Source: an uncultured Spirochaeta sp.
GTDB taxonomy: Bacteria > Spirochaetota > Spirochaetia > DSM-27196 > Alkalispirochaetaceae
Assembly: GCA_913030605.1 (NCBI GenBank)
Contig: CAJWEZ010000015.1
Span: 1 to 64,000, forward strand
Length of the DNA stretch: 64,000 nucleotides
Direction of reading: 5' to 3'
Shown here one piece after another: positions 6,766 through 13,117 of the stretch. Each line of letters starts with the position of its first letter. Position 1 is the stretch's first letter. Under the pieces are notes generated by a model. The model did no database searches. It was not told the DNA's origin and saw only the letters and a program-made list of their open reading frames with translations. The position numbers and the translations under genes were made by a program.

Positions 6766-8295
6766 TCAGCGTGCGTACTCCACCACGCGGGTTTCCCGGA
6801 TCATCGTCACCTTGATCCGGCCCGGGTAGCGCAGCTGGTCCTCGATCTTTCGGGCAATCGACTTGGCGATTTCCCGCGCCTGCTGGTCGCTCACCTTTTC
6901 GTGGTTGACCATGATGCGCAGCTCGCGGCCCGCCTGGATCGCGTACGCCTTGTCGACCCCCTCGAACTCCTCGGCGATCGCCTCGAGGTTTTCCAGTCGC
7001 TTGATGTAGTTGTCCAGCGTCTCACGCCGGGCGCCGGGTCGCGACGCCGAAATGGCATCCGCCACCTGCACGATCACCGACTCGATACAGTTGTGCGGCA
7101 CGTCTCCGTGGTGGGCGGCGATACAGTTGATCACCCGCGGGTCCTCACCGATGCGCTTGGCGAGTTCGACACCCAGTTCGACGTGGTTGCTGTCACCGTC
7201 GGTTTCGATGCCCTTGCCTATGTCGTGAAGCACGCCGCCGCGACGGGCGATCTCAATGTCCGCGCCGACCTCCGCCGCCAGCGTCCCCGCCAGCACCGCG
7301 ACCTCCTTGCTGTGGGCAAGGACGTTCTGACCGTAGCTGGTACGGAACGCGAGGCGCCCGAGTCCGCGCACCCCTTCCGGCTTGATGTGGTGAATGTTGA
7401 GCTCGTAGAGGACCTTCTCGCCCTCTTCGTAGATCGTCTGGGTCATGTCGGTGGTGACCTTCTGCACCACCTCCTCGATCCGCGTCGGGTGAATCCGACC
7501 GTCCGACACCAGTCGCTCCAGGGATCGCTTGGCAATCTCCTTGCGGACCGGATCGAAGCACGAGACCACAACCGCCTCGGGTGTGTCGTCGATAATGATA
7601 TCGACCCCGGTAAGCGTCTCCAGGGTACGGATGTTCCGTCCCTCGCGGCCGATGATCCGTCCCTTCATCTCGTCGTTGGGCAAACTGACCGACGAGACGG
7701 TGACCTCAGCGTTCACTTCGCTGGCCATTCGCTGAACGGTGGACACGAGGATTTCCCGCGCCTGCCGTTCCGCGGTCATGACCGCTTCCTGCTCGATCTT
7801 GTTGATGAGACCCTGGGCCTCGTGGCGCGCGTCGTCTTCGAGCGAACTCGTGATCAGGCGTCGCGCCTCCTCCTGCGTAAGCCCGGAGATCCGTTCCAGC
7901 TCGTTGCGCCAGTGAATCTCAAGCTCATCGAGCTGCTTCTGTCGATCGTCTAGATTCCTCTCACGGGTCGAAAGCCCCTGGTTCTCCTGATCGAGAGCCT
8001 CGGCCTTCTCTTCTAGGTTTTCTTCTTTCTGCAAAAGGCGCCGCTCGAGACGTTGCAGTTCCTTCTGCCGGTCCCGAAGCTCGCGCTCCTGTTCATTTCG
8101 CTCGCGCTGCAGCGCGTCTCGTGTCTCTAGTATCAGTTCCTTCTGCCGAGCTTCCGCCTCTTTTGCGGCGTCTTTCTTCAGGCGTTCCGCCAACTGCTCG
8201 GTTGAAGAAAGCTGAAACCTGGCGTAAAACCAGCGTATCGTCCAACCTAGAACTGCACCAGCAAGAGGAAGGGCAATGTACAACACCAGCTGCAT
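6766..8295 (-). CDS. rny: Ribonuclease Y
   Basis: Membrane-anchored endoribonuclease that starts mRNA decay. The 509 residues show an N-terminal transmembrane helix (QLVLYIALPLAGAVLGW), a long charged coiled coil (about 30-190), a KH domain (KGRIIGREGRNIRTLE) and an HD domain with the metal motif GGVLHDIGKG and AAHHGD. I set the start at the ATG at 8295 because a strong Shine-Dalgarno (GGGGAGGAAGG) lies just upstream; a longer in-frame GTG start would sit inside that site. Palindromic DNA between this gene and the tetR-type gene probably contains its promoter. Confidence 0.96.
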   Translation of the reverse strand: MQLVLYIALPLAGAVLGWTIRWFYARFQLSSTEQLAERLKKDAAKEAEARQKELILETRDALQRERNEQERELRDRQKELQRLERRLLQKEENLEEKAEALDQENQGLSTRERNLDDRQKQLDELEIHWRNELERISGLTQEEARRLITSSLEDDARHEAQGLINKIEQEAVMTAERQAREILVSTVQRMASEVNAEVTVSSVSLPNDEMKGRIIGREGRNIRTLETLTGVDIIIDDTPEAVVVSCFDPVRKEIAKRSLERLVSDGRIHPTRIEEVVQKVTTDMTQTIYEEGEKVLYELNIHHIKPEGVRGLGRLAFRTSYGQNVLAHSKEVAVLAGTLAAEVGADIEIARRGGVLHDIGKGIETDGDSNHVELGVELAKRIGEDPRVINCIAAHHGDVPHNCIESVIVQVADAISASRPGARRETLDNYIKRLENLEAIAEEFEGVDKAYAIQAGRELRIMVNHEKVSDQQAREIAKSIARKIEDQLRYPGRIKVTMIRETRVVEYAR

Positions 8296-8312
8296 AACCT
8301 TCCTCCCCACCT

Positions 8313-8351: not shown

Positions 8352-9002
8352 TCAAGTTTCGAGCCAGTCCAGGTCGTCGTCATCCTGAATGAGTCGCCGG
8401 TCCAGGCGCTCGGCGCGTCGCCGAAGGCGCAGGACGCGACGCAACCCGCGCTGGATGAGGCGCAGCATGTCCCGCGAGAGCTGCTCGACTTCCGGGTCAT
8501 CCAGATGGTTGATCACCGTGTCCAGGAGTGCCATGACCAGACCGTGGGCGTCCTCGTACAGCCCCGGTCGAAACACGCCGCGGCGGGAACCGTCGCGAAT
8601 GATCTCCGCCACCAGCTCTTCGATGTGCCGGCGCAGCGCGCCGACGGCGCCCTCGTTGAGATCGAATCCGGGATACAGGTACCGTTCGTCGCCACGCAGT
8701 ACCCCCCGAAGAATCGGATACCGCTTCATGCCCAGGACGATGAACTGGTAGACTGCCTTGAGCTTGTTGACGGGAGAGTGCAGTCGTTCCACAACCTGCT
8801 GAGCCTTGCGGATCCCTTCCCGCTCGATCAGGCTGAGGATCTGTTCGTAGAACGTTTCCTTGCTGCGGAAGTACTTGTAGAATGTGCCGACGCTGAGTCC
8901 CGCCTTGCGAACGATGTCCTCCACGGACACATCGCGGTATCCGTACCGGGAGAAGAGTTCCATTCCGGAACGGATCAACAGGCTGCGTCGGTTGGCCTTC
9001 AT
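8352..9002 (-). CDS. TetR-family transcriptional regulator
   Basis: 216 residues. The N-terminal 55 residues are a TetR helix-turn-helix (RSGMELFSRYGYRDVSVEDI, then KAGLSVGTFYKYFRSKETFY). The remaining 150 residues are helical and should form the ligand-binding and dimerisation core. The gene is transcribed away from the putative cysteate synthase operon (start to start about 220 bases), the usual arrangement for a TetR protein that represses itself and its divergent neighbours; it could equally influence rny downstream. The ligand is unknown; a fatty acyl compound is plausible given the neighbours but is inference. Confidence 0.88.
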   Translation of the reverse strand: MKANRRSLLIRSGMELFSRYGYRDVSVEDIVRKAGLSVGTFYKYFRSKETFYEQILSLIEREGIRKAQQVVERLHSPVNKLKAVYQFIVLGMKRYPILRGVLRGDERYLYPGFDLNEGAVGALRRHIEELVAEIIRDGSRRGVFRPGLYEDAHGLVMALLDTVINHLDDPEVEQLSRDMLRLIQRGLRRVLRLRRRAERLDRRLIQDDDDLDWLET

Positions 9003-9221
9003 GCCGCCGAGTATACTTCACCCACTCGGAAAACGAAAGACGAAGTGAAGATCCTGCTCGAATATTCACGTTACCAAAAAGCTATTTCTCTCTTGTTTTA
9101 GGCGACGAACGCGAGACGAAAGACCGGTCATGCAGCGAAACGATGAGAACTCGATGAGTCGGCCCAAACGCTGATTGACCGTAACACCGCCAGCGGGCTA
9201 CCACGGACAGGGAGGATGGCA
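9003..9221. promoter_or_regulatory. Divergent control region between tetR-type gene and sulfonolipid operon
   Basis: This 219-base gap is AT-richer than its surroundings. It holds TATACT close to the tetR-type start (minus strand -10 candidate), an inverted repeat CTTCAC (9016-9021) / GTGAAG (9045-9050), and the palindrome GAATATTC near 9060. These are candidate TetR operators. A Shine-Dalgarno GGAGG sits at 9211-9215. No convincing complete -35/-10 pair was found for the plus strand. Confidence 0.4.
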
Positions 9222-10574
9222 ATGAGCGAGATCGCAATCCAGCCGGACGTCCACGATATCATGGATCACTACGGGCTTCGCTGCCTGAAATCGGGAGCTG
9301 CCCTCAGGGATCTGCGGGACGTGCCGCGCCCCGAGTTTCCGATGGCGGCACCGGATGTGGACGGGGCCTTTCTCCGGACGACCTATCGGGCCCGTTCGCT
9401 GCGGGTCGGCCCCGCCGACGAGGGGCTCTTCCGCTTTTCCGACTGGCTGCCGGTGAACCTTCGACTTCCCGGCTCGGGCGCCCCCGTCACCTACCGCTCC
9501 ACCGGCCTCGCGTCCCATCTCGGGCTGCAGGATCTGTTCATCACGTTCAGTGGCTGGTGGCCCGAACGTGGCGCGCACATCCCGAGTGGCACGTTCAAGG
9601 AGAACGAGGCGTACGCGGTGTACGGCCGCATGGGCGCCGCCGCCTACCAGGAGACACTTGTCGTTGCCTCCGCCGGGAACACCGCCCGCGCGTTTCTGCG
9701 GGTGGCGTCGGAGAACAACCTCCCACTGGTCGTCGTCGTTCCCGAGGCGAACATTCCCGAACTCTGGACCGTTGGACCCCGCTCGCCGTCCACGGTGGTT
9801 GTGGCCGCCGGCGACGGGTCGGACTACAGCGACGCGATCCGCCTCGCCGGCATGCTGTGTTCGCAGCCCGGTTTTCTGGCGGAAGGGGGCGCCAGGAACG
9901 TCGCGCGTCGCGACGGAATGGGAACCACCTATCTCTCAGCGGCGACAACGATCGGGCGAACGCCGGATCACTACTTTCAGGCGGTCGGGAGCGGCACCGG
10001 CGCGATCGCCGCGTGGGAGGCAAACCTCCGCATGCTCGAAGACGGCGCCTGGGGCACCGCACGGACCCGCCTTCACCTGGCGCAGAACGCGCCGTTCCAG
10101 ATACTGGTCGACTCATGGACCGCCCGGAGCCGGACGCTGCTCCTTCCGGACGCAGATACCGCGCGGCGCCAGATCGAGGAGATCTCGGCCAAGGTACTCG
10201 CCAACCGACAGCCTCCATGGAGCCCGGTCGGTGGGCTGTATGACGCGCTCGAAGACACCGACGGCGAAATGTACGCCGTGGGGAACGACGCCGCCGCAGC
10301 CGCCGGAGACCTTTTTCAGCGACTCGAGGGGGTCGATCTAAGCCCGGCGGCACGCGTCGCGGCGGCGGCTCTGATCGAGTCGGTCGAGACACAGCGCGTT
10401 GGGCGCAACGACGTCATCAACCTGAATATCACCGGGGGCGGGTATGCCCGCGCCCGGGCGGACCTGGATACCCGCCCGCTGACAGCGGACATTATCGCCG
10501 GCGCCGACCTGTTCGGGCCGGAGGCGATCGCCGAAGCGGTGGGGACTATCCGGGAGTCCCGCACCCATACGTAG
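9222..10574 (+). CDS. Cysteate synthase-like PLP enzyme (threonine synthase superfamily)
   Basis: 450-residue fold-type II PLP enzyme. The PLP lysine is in PSGTFKENEAY (about K126), the phosphate/substrate loop is SAGNTARAF, and a glycine-rich stretch VGSGTGAIAAWEANLRML follows. The opening GLRCLKSG, the GWWPERGA stretch and the SGTFKE motif resemble archaeal cysteate synthase (O-phosphoserine plus sulfite to L-cysteate, coenzyme M pathway) more than true threonine synthase. The next gene encodes an alpha-oxoamine synthase, the expected partner if cysteate is being made for sulfonolipids. I chose the ATG at 9222, six bases after GGAGG; the ATG at 9216 is too close to it. A threonine synthase role remains the main alternative. 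Confidence 0.75.
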   Translation: MSEIAIQPDVHDIMDHYGLRCLKSGAALRDLRDVPRPEFPMAAPDVDGAFLRTTYRARSLRVGPADEGLFRFSDWLPVNLRLPGSGAPVTYRSTGLASHLGLQDLFITFSGWWPERGAHIPSGTFKENEAYAVYGRMGAAAYQETLVVASAGNTARAFLRVASENNLPLVVVVPEANIPELWTVGPRSPSTVVVAAGDGSDYSDAIRLAGMLCSQPGFLAEGGARNVARRDGMGTTYLSAATTIGRTPDHYFQAVGSGTGAIAAWEANLRMLEDGAWGTARTRLHLAQNAPFQILVDSWTARSRTLLLPDADTARRQIEEISAKVLANRQPPWSPVGGLYDALEDTDGEMYAVGNDAAAAAGDLFQRLEGVDLSPAARVAAAALIESVETQRVGRNDVINLNITGGGYARARADLDTRPLTADIIAGADLFGPEAIAEAVGTIRESRTHT

Positions 10575-10622
10575 GAAACCATCCCCGCCAACGGCGGGAA
10601 CAATCGAGGAGAACAGAGACAG

Positions 10623-11951
10623 ATGCTATTGGATCAGCAGGCAGAACAGGAAAGCGCCGCGAAGGCGGAGGGACATACGGATCTGTTTGCCAAGTGCCAT
10701 ACGGATGGCGGCTACTTCGGCAAGATGCGGGTGATCGGGGACGACGAGTACACGCGCCCCGTGCTTCCCCCGAATCCGTCACGCCACATGGAGTTCAAGG
10801 GCAAGGAACACATCATGTGGTCGATCAACAACTACCTCGGTCTGGCCAACCATCCCGATGTACTCGAGGTTGCGCACAAGACGATCGATGAGTTCGGTGT
10901 CAGCTCCCCCATGGGCAGCCGCATGATGAGCGGCAACACCGAGTACCACCTCGCGTTTGAGCGGGAGCTCGCGGCCCACGCGGAAAAGGAAGCCTCGTTC
11001 CTCTTTAACTACGGCTATATGGGCGTCCAGGGTACAATTCAGTCGCTGGTCGGCAAGGACGACATCATCGTCATGGACAAGCTCGACCACGCGTGCATCG
11101 TCGACGGTGCGTTCCTGGGACAGTCGATGAACGGTGCGCAGCTTCGCGTGTTCAAACACAACAACATGGACAACCTCGAGCAGGTTCTCAAGCGGGTTAA
11201 CCGCGACCGCAAGGGCGGCGTCCTGGTTCTCACCGAGGGCGTCTACGGCATGACCGGCGATCTGGCGCCGCTCAAGGAAATCACCGCGCTCAAGGACAAG
11301 TACGACGCCCGGCTCTACATCGACGACGCCCACGGGTGGGGCACCATGGGGCCCCAGGGCAAGGGCACCGCGGCACACTTCGGCGTCCAGGACAAGGTGG
11401 ACATCTACTTCGGCACCTTCGCCAAGAGTTTTGCCTCCATCGGTGGATTCTCGGCATCCACTAAGGAAGTTGTCGACTGGATCGCCTACAACGCCCGGAC
11501 GCAGGTGTTCGCCAAGAGCCTTCCGATGCTCTACGTCCAGACGCTGCGCAAGACGTTCGATCTGGTGAAATCCGGCGAAGACCGGCGCCAGAAGATGTGG
11601 AAACGCAGCAACGAGCTCAAGGCCGGACTTCGTGAGCTTGGATTCTACGTCGGCCCCGGCGAGTCGCCGATCTGCTCGGTCTTCATCCCCACGGGAGAGG
11701 AAGCGCTCGAGACGATCGGGGCGGCAACCTCCGGCTTTCTGCGAAAGAACGGCGTCTTCGTGACCGCGATCACCTATCCGGTCATTCCGCTGGGTCTTCT
11801 GATGTTCCGCATGATTCCGACGGCGATGCACGAAGAGGAGGATGTGGCGAACACACTGGCGGTGTTCAAACACATGCGAGACAACCTCGGACTGCGTCTG
11901 ACGATGAACGAGGACGAAGACAAGAAGATTCGCAAGGTGTACGGAATCTGA
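10623..11951 (+). CDS. Alpha-oxoamine synthase, probable cysteate C-fatty acyltransferase
   Basis: 442-residue fold-type I PLP enzyme of the serine palmitoyltransferase / KBL / BioF family, which condenses an amino acid with an acyl-CoA or acyl-ACP with loss of CO2. The PLP lysine is in GTFAKSFASIGGF (K268); the ring-stacking His is in DKLDHACI (H156), and YIDDAHGWG holds the Asp and His that contact the cofactor. The 60-residue N-terminal extension (GGYFGKMRVI, TRPVLPPNP) is typical of the SPT-like branch rather than KBL. It lies 48 bases after the cysteate synthase-like gene in the same operon, so L-cysteate is the likely amino acid and 3-ketocapnine the likely product (inference). Serine or glycine as substrate are alternatives. 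Confidence 0.8.
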   Translation: MLLDQQAEQESAAKAEGHTDLFAKCHTDGGYFGKMRVIGDDEYTRPVLPPNPSRHMEFKGKEHIMWSINNYLGLANHPDVLEVAHKTIDEFGVSSPMGSRMMSGNTEYHLAFERELAAHAEKEASFLFNYGYMGVQGTIQSLVGKDDIIVMDKLDHACIVDGAFLGQSMNGAQLRVFKHNNMDNLEQVLKRVNRDRKGGVLVLTEGVYGMTGDLAPLKEITALKDKYDARLYIDDAHGWGTMGPQGKGTAAHFGVQDKVDIYFGTFAKSFASIGGFSASTKEVVDWIAYNARTQVFAKSLPMLYVQTLRKTFDLVKSGEDRRQKMWKRSNELKAGLRELGFYVGPGESPICSVFIPTGEEALETIGAATSGFLRKNGVFVTAITYPVIPLGLLMFRMIPTAMHEEEDVANTLAVFKHMRDNLGLRLTMNEDEDKKIRKVYGI

Positions 11952-12071
11952 TCAGACCCCGCGGCAGCGGTGGTGGCCCCGGCCGCCGCCGGCCGCGGTG
12001 GGCGCTGCACCGGGGCCGGTGAATGCACCGGCTGCGGCGGCCCGGCCCCGGCGCGTCAGTCCCTGACGCGC
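11952..12071. terminator. GC-rich hairpins between convergent genes
   Basis: Between the end of the oxoamine synthase gene and the convergent VOC gene lie several inverted repeats: GGCCCCGG (11975-11982) with CCGGGGCC (12010-12017), and a 9-bp stem GCGCGTCAG/CTGACGCGC with a 3-base loop at 12051-12071 that covers the VOC stop codon. No U-tract follows, so this is at most a weak bidirectional terminator. Confidence 0.35.
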
Positions 12072-13117
12072 CCCATACCCATCGCCCGGATCATCCATCC
12101 GGGAAGCGGTTTTTCCATCCCCCGCTTCCGGAGATCGAGATACCAGTTGATCTTTTTCAGGACCGGCAGCTTGTGGGTCTCCACGAACTCGATCAGCGTT
12201 CCGTCGGGGTCCTCGATATACGAGAAGCGCCCGCCGGCCTCACCCATATCGAAACTCGATCCCGAATCAACCGTAAACGGGTGGCCCGCGGCGTCGCACC
12301 GCGTCTTCAGCACGTCCATCCCCACGATGTCGAAACACAGGTGAATGAATCCGAGATCACCCCAGAAACGGTCCTGGAACACCCGCATCCCATGGTGATC
12401 CGGAACCTCCACAAGCTCGAGGCGAGTCTCCCCGAAGAGCCGGCTGAATGCGCCGGCGGCGGGGGCCGAACGTTTGAGGAGGACGCGACGCAGCCGGGTG
12501 TCGCCGCCGGGGATCGCGGCAAGATCCGGGAATTCGCCGGTCTCGTCGTAGATTTTGGTGTCGTAGCCCAGAACGGTGGCGTAGAAATCGAGCGACGCGG
12601 CCATGTCCGATACACCGATCAGCGCGCCTTCCACGCCGCCGGTCTGGTGACGCGGCTTCGAGAACCAACTCTCGCTTTCCACAACCTGGAAGTGATTCCC
12701 GTACGGGTCGCGGACCGCGAATCGGGCGTGACCCTCGGGGTCCTCGCTGATTCCACCGAGCACCTCCACGCCCTGCTCCAGCATGCGCTGGTATGCCTGA
12801 TGCACGCCCTGCGCGCGAATACGTCCGGCGAGGATTCCGTAGTCGCCGATACCCACCGGCCGCGACGGAGGCTCCGGTGTCCGGCTGGTATACTGCCAGA
12901 TCTCGAATCCGCCGCCTCCGGCGAGGTTGATCGCGAGCATCGCGTCACGGGACTGCACCGTGCCGCCGGTATACGGCGTCATGAACGGCGCCTCCGCCGC
13001 CTCCCGAAAAACCGGGAGATCGGTGCCGAAGGTACGCCGAAACCAGTCGAACGCCGTATCGGTGTTGGGGATGCCCACGCCAAGCTGCTGAATTCCGCTG
13101 AAGATCACGCTGTCCAT
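12056..13117 (-). CDS. Two-domain VOC (glyoxalase/dioxygenase fold) protein
   Basis: 353 residues with two vicinal-oxygen-chelate modules: residues about 5-135 (IQQLGVGIPNTDTAFDWF ... AVRDPYGNHFQVVE) and about 150-320 (LIGVSDMAASLDFYATVLGY ... IHLCFDI ... YIEDPDGTLIEFVETH). The second module keeps a His and a Glu at the places that usually bind a metal. The family includes glyoxalase I, ring-cleaving dioxygenases and antibiotic-resistance proteins, so no reaction can be named. I started at MDSVIFSGIQQLGV because the longer in-frame extension has no family similarity. It converges on the sulfonolipid-type operon; a functional link is not shown. Confidence 0.75.
   Translation of the reverse strand: MDSVIFSGIQQLGVGIPNTDTAFDWFRRTFGTDLPVFREAAEAPFMTPYTGGTVQSRDAMLAINLAGGGGFEIWQYTSRTPEPPSRPVGIGDYGILAGRIRAQGVHQAYQRMLEQGVEVLGGISEDPEGHARFAVRDPYGNHFQVVESESWFSKPRHQTGGVEGALIGVSDMAASLDFYATVLGYDTKIYDETGEFPDLAAIPGGDTRLRRVLLKRSAPAAGAFSRLFGETRLELVEVPDHHGMRVFQDRFWGDLGFIHLCFDIVGMDVLKTRCDAAGHPFTVDSGSSFDMGEAGGRFSYIEDPDGTLIEFVETHKLPVLKKINWYLDLRKRGMEKPLPGWMIRAMGMGRVRD

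Follow-up and report, generated by a model that had tools for sequence, protein, structure and literature searches.

Bacterial sulfonolipid synthesis appears to be limited to Bacteroidota (2023 review PMC10191378). Its enzymes and pathway are known from that phylum, and cysteate synthase (CysS) is known from methanogens as well; in Methanosarcinales it serves coenzyme M synthesis. Alistipes finegoldii combines an archaeal-type cysteate synthase with the acyltransferase SulA. Capnocytophaga and Ornithobacterium employ the CapA-CapB-CapC pathway, in which CapA is a distant relative of the archaeal cysteate synthase (PMC10191378). Homologues of Cys and cfat have also been reported in 13 phyla, at an E-value of 1e-20 (PMC11211663). 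Since ordinary paralogues pass this threshold, reaching 1e-45 to 1e-72 against the second protein of the locus described here, we do not take that statement as prior evidence for spirochaetes.

Here we analysed 64,000 nucleotides of DNA ("the window") from an uncultured Spirochaeta sp., located on contig C15 of a 4.07 Mb genome that is 94% complete. The window encodes a pair of enzymes belonging to the same two families as the Alistipes finegoldii pair. Its cysteate synthase is of the archaeal type (TIGR03844), unlike CapA, and falls into the same equivalog family as the Methanosarcinales enzyme; unlike the latter, it is partnered by a fatty acyltransferase. This CapB-type acyltransferase is what the window has in common with the Capnocytophaga and Ornithobacterium pathway. 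Compared with Alistipes finegoldii, the phylum is a different one, and the spirochaete genes are adjacent, accompanied by a TetR gene and, in a sister family, part of one operon with cysD, cysN and cysH. We consider it likely (probability about 0.8) that the pair encodes the enzymes for the first two steps in the synthesis of capnine-type sulfonolipids; the enzyme activities, the later steps, the lipid and where it resides are inferred.

Identity of the two enzymes

An initial annotation had proposed a two-gene operon at 9222-11951, with a cysteate synthase-like fold-type II PLP enzyme followed by an SPT-like alpha-oxoamine synthase. Both open reading frames are intact at this place: gene 1 (9222..10574, + strand) encodes 450 amino acids, with a second in-frame ATG at 9216, and is separated by 48 bp from gene 2 (10623..11951, + strand), which encodes 442 amino acids. 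The motifs named in that annotation were confirmed as well, namely GWWPERGA at residues 111-118 and SGTFKE with the PLP lysine K126 in gene 1, and the PLP lysine K268 within GTFAKSF in gene 2.

Against TIGR03844, the NCBIfam equivalog model for cysteate synthase, gene 1 scored 454.3 bits (E 3.2e-136) and passed the curated cut-off of 324.9, versus 21-49 bits with threonine synthase models that require 167-303. The only control genome above the TIGR03844 cut-off was Methanosarcina acetivorans. Among solved structures the best match was the cysteate synthase 9k3c (E 3e-117, 50% identity over 374 positions), with threonine synthases next at 1e-6 to 1e-9. Gene 1 and 9k3c have in common K126, in an aligned SxTFKE block, and the blocks SAGNTARA, GSGTGAIAAWEA and NITGGG. 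In a maximum-likelihood tree, gene 1 grouped with 9k3c and other cysteate synthases against three threonine synthases (100/100). Curated cut-offs and tree thus led us to reject an identity as threonine synthase. Gene 1 is a cysteate synthase by family, clade and residues; that it makes cysteate is inferred from sequence alone.

The best solved matches of gene 2 were 28eh, a cysteate-C-fatty acyltransferase (CFAT; 2e-109), and SulA of Alistipes finegoldii (7u7h; 2.9e-103, 45% identity), followed by serine palmitoyltransferase (SPT) at 3.4e-71. The protein remained under every NCBIfam cut-off (bioF 305 of 426 bits, KBL 252 of 493, SPT 289 of 640), and no CFAT model was among its NCBIfam matches. 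We computed a tree of 31 alpha-oxoamine synthases, including the KBL of the window's own genome (L035). Gene 2 shared a clade of 17 members (100/100, stem length 0.99) with 28eh, 7u7h and two plasmid proteins of Bacteroidota; SPT and KBL, L035 included, branched separately. As references we used PDB chains and plasmid records, without direct sampling of Bacteroidota or archaeal genomes; a scan of genome contigs with one protein as query returned just two close relatives. All PLP and catalytic residues of SulA (N53, H140, D217, H220, K251 and R376) are kept in gene 2. In addition, K281 of SulA has been proposed as a mark of cysteate-using enzymes, with alanine in SPT (PMC9304779), and SulA loses activity when this lysine is changed to alanine. 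The equivalent in gene 2 is K298; all spirochaete CFATs that we examined have lysine at this position, whereas paralogues have N, A, C or T. The bacterial SPT 3a2b shares fold and PLP chemistry with gene 2 at 32% identity, but has alanine at the K281 position and falls into a separate clade. A KBL or SPT identity was therefore rejected by cut-offs and tree. By clade and residues, gene 2 is an acyltransferase of the CFAT/SulA/CapB type, which is predicted to use cysteate and an acyl thioester. The earlier proposals were supported for both genes. Clustering with threonine synthases or within KBL/SPT clades had been named as refuting them, and both checks came out in their favour.

Two observations concern related acyltransferases. 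Genomes of families f24/f42 (L028-L031) encode, besides CFAT, an SPT-like paralogue that has alanine in place of K281 and groups with 3a2b (94/92). Sphingolipid and sulfonolipid synthesis have been suggested to be mutually exclusive in Bacteroidota (PMC10191378), and this exclusion may fail in f24/f42. Moreover, a Legionella lytica plasmid (NZ_CP071528.1, L084:8989-13860) encodes a CFAT-like protein with 43% identity to gene 2 that keeps the K281-equivalent lysine. The gene is followed by genes annotated as phosphosulfolactate synthase and 2-phosphosulfolactate phosphatase. From sequence alone, this suggests that a gammaproteobacterium makes something like sulfonolipids, reaching cysteate or another sulfonate by a different route.

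Genomic site, regulator and VOC neighbour

The contig belongs to a spirochaete. Genes upstream of the pair (RNase Y, YmdB-like, TlyA and PtsI) are syntenic with the congener G293 and partly with G335, RNase Y is 86% identical to the congener's protein, and those relatives sharing this locus that carry a name are Spirochaeta MAGs. This synteny and the shared locus led us to reject contamination of the MAG contig. RNase Y (6766..8310, − strand; PF12072, E 9.1e-47) forms the conserved left border of the site by synteny and lies outside the pathway. In the window, in L012 and in G246, the cassette is located between RNase Y and a membrane-protein gene; in L013 the RNase Y side is visible before the contig ends. 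RNase Y directly adjoins the same membrane-protein gene in the congener G335, which lacks the pathway. The window's genes were therefore either gained at this defined site or differentially lost from it among relatives.

As claimed at the outset, a TetR-family gene is divergently oriented to the pair (8352..9002, − strand; PF00440, E 3.8e-15). It is retained beside the cassette at 12 loci in two families (f1 and f60; neighbourhood cluster 9), and its product would probably control the CysS-CFAT pair. A search for a palindromic TetR operator revealed no palindrome common to the 12 loci. A short element, CTC(A/G)AATATTCA, lies in the TetR-CysS intergenic region (9057..9070, + strand), with GAATATTC at 9060-9067. 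It occurs in 5 of the 12 loci (the window, L013, L153, L155 and L157) and might be a regulatory site, although only its sequence speaks for this.

Downstream, a two-domain VOC (glyoxalase-fold) protein is encoded convergently (12056..13117, − strand; PF00903, E 1.1e-16) and is a candidate accessory. Its AlphaFold model (pLDDT 93.7) resembles dichlorohydroquinone dioxygenase, GLOD4 and plant glyoxalase I; no solved relative was found by sequence, and a plasmid search gave no match. Q10, E72, H258 and E310 occupy conserved positions, which we read as a putative glyoxalase I-like metal site. Close homologues (>50% identity) were present in 22 of the 46 genomes of the window's order, 21 of them with CFAT, and the protein occupies the same site in another family (G246). 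However, genus g174, which lacks the pathway, carries a 30%-identical version at the same RNase Y site, and in other families the VOC gene adjoins KBL and, once, a threonine dehydrogenase-like gene. We therefore do not accept the protein as a proven member of the pathway; membership is possible but less likely than not.

Distribution and sulfite supply

Among 393 evenly drawn Spirochaetota genomes, cysteate synthase was found in 10, and CFAT in the same 10; the pair was present in all eight genomes of the f24/f42 order. Because relatives are not independent, we take these ten positives to stand for roughly three lineages (f1, f15 and the order of f24/f42), not for ten events. Retention of the cassette spans seven or more families from at least two orders. 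From the order to which the window belongs we analysed 46 genomes, including Salinispira pacifica. Cysteate synthase was detected in 26 of them (25 matched, plus G431, where the gene is cut at a contig end). With G431 and a partial CFAT at the edge of a G428 contig included, the pair was present in 20 genomes; 6 had only cysteate synthase, 1 had only CFAT and 19 had neither gene (Fisher P = 7e-7, the genomes being related). Salinispira pacifica (G203, one contig of 3,782,798 bases) has neither gene.

The two genes do not always travel together. In genus g175, cysteate synthase was over or near the cut-off in four genomes (G420-G423, L173-L176), and no CFAT or VOC match was found in any of them, so cysteate probably has another use there. 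The g175 gene adjoins an ArsR-type regulator and an ArsP-type permease (PF03773). G397 retains CFAT (L168) and no cysteate synthase was found in it. In G396 (L166, L167), the RNase Y site lacks cysteate synthase; a copy resembling that of f63 lies on another contig, beside cysH. In these two genomes the genes came apart, and replacement is possible.

In the sister family f63, cysD, cysN, cysteate synthase, CFAT and cysH follow one another on the same strand, spaced or overlapping by only a few bases (L159 4794-10990), and this order was also observed in L160, L161, L164 and L165. By hmmscan, CysD (339 bits, cut-off 195) and the (P)APS reductase (283 bits, cut-off 154) were confirmed, CysN scored just under its cut-off (327 versus 336 bits), and the middle genes were identified as cysteate synthase and a CFAT-type protein. 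This arrangement fits the proposed chemistry, with sulfate-to-sulfite genes flanking a sulfite-using enzyme. In the window's genome, cysH, cysQ, cysD and cysNC lie together on contig C3, each over its curated cut-off. Across the order, CysH was commoner with cysteate synthase (14 of 26 positive versus 1 of 20 negative genomes). The other 12 of the 26 positives had no CysH match, and for these one has to suppose that sulfite comes from elsewhere or that contigs are missing. None of the order's 46 genomes showed PF01077, the siroheme domain of sulfite/nitrite reductases, which was detected in 11 of 14 control genomes. The classical way of reducing it to sulfide is thus not available for sulfite made by CysH, and the obvious use for it is the synthesis of cysteate.

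Proposed pathway and rival readings

In the proposed pathway, sulfate would be converted to sulfite through CysDN(C) and CysH, and without a sulfite reductase having been found, this sulfite would be free for cysteate synthesis. Cysteate synthase, as the archaeal and Alistipes type, would form cysteate from phosphoserine and sulfite. CFAT would then condense cysteate with a fatty acyl thioester, probably acyl-ACP or else acyl-CoA, yielding 3-ketocapnine and CO2. Enzymes encoded elsewhere would reduce 3-ketocapnine to capnine and N-acylate it to an envelope sulfonolipid. The first two steps are predicted from family membership and residues; reduction, N-acylation and the lipid itself are inferred by analogy with Bacteroidota (PMC9304779, PMC11211663, PMC10191378). 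Family identity, active-site residues, co-occurrence, the operon context in relatives, the sulfite-supply genes and the lack of a sulfite reductase are shown. The initial claim that the organism makes capnine-type sulfonolipids is supported by the co-occurrence, the f63 operon and sulfite genes without sulfite reductase. It nevertheless remains an inference, as there are no lipid data and neither the ketoreductase nor the N-acyltransferase has been identified. No late-step genes were seen at the cassette site; the published 3-ketocapnine reductases (CapC/KCR) are scattered SDRs of low identity that do not adjoin the first two genes either (PMC11211663). In six f24/f42 genomes (L046, L047, L049, L050, L052 and L053), CFAT is divergent from a ketopantoate reductase-like (ApbA/PanE) gene. 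Its product could be a non-SDR 3-ketocapnine reductase, a suggestion that rests on sequence only.

Several points speak against the main reading, namely cysteate synthase without CFAT in g175, CFAT without cysteate synthase in G397, the gaps in CysH occurrence, and counts that are not independent among related genomes. One rival reading is that a capnine-like base is exported, or acts as a signal or secondary metabolite, rather than being a structural envelope lipid. A dedicated TetR regulator, the patchy presence inside a genus and the lack of late-step genes at the site would fit. However, retention over at least seven families suggests a housekeeping lipid, and the Bacteroidota products are reported as envelope lipids (PMC9304779); we regard this reading as unlikely.

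About as unlikely is that the cysteate goes into a different sulfonate pathway (coenzyme M-like, taurine or another osmolyte) and that gene 2 encodes an SPT that makes an ordinary sphingoid base from serine. The g175 genomes, which keep cysteate synthase beside the permease and ArsR regulator without CFAT, and a Streptomyces plasmid encoding a relative of cysteate synthase favour it; against it stand the position of gene 2 in the CFAT clade with K298, outside the SPT clade, and the fact that the two genes co-occur and are linked in operons. An ordinary threonine synthase-like enzyme beside a KBL/SPT-like enzyme of amino acid metabolism is all but excluded. Both proteins are remote kin of these families, and in f60 and f63 a genuine KBL gene lies beside the cassette. 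But the scores fall far short (thrC 21 bits versus 167, KBL 252 versus 493), both trees exclude it, and the window's genome has a separate KBL (L035). The preferred reading thus remains the sulfonolipid pathway. A bolder version holds that sulfate reduction stops at sulfite (CysDN and CysH, no sulfite reductase) and is dedicated to membrane sulfonolipids via cysteate synthase and CFAT, outside Bacteroidota and in one operon in f63, possibly with the glyoxalase-fold protein as an undescribed extra enzyme. We consider this version as likely to fail as to hold.

What appears to be new is the occurrence in this phylum, the sharing of one operon with genes for sulfate activation and the lack of a sulfite reductase; the literature searched excluded most subscription journals, and an earlier report is possible. 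With the first two enzymes present in several Spirochaetota families, capnine-type sulfonolipids may be an unsafe marker of Bacteroidota in lipidomes, and part of the environmental sulfonolipid signal may derive from spirochaetes. In addition, where no sulfite reductase can be recognised, reducing sulfate to sulfite gains an anabolic purpose that can be tested.
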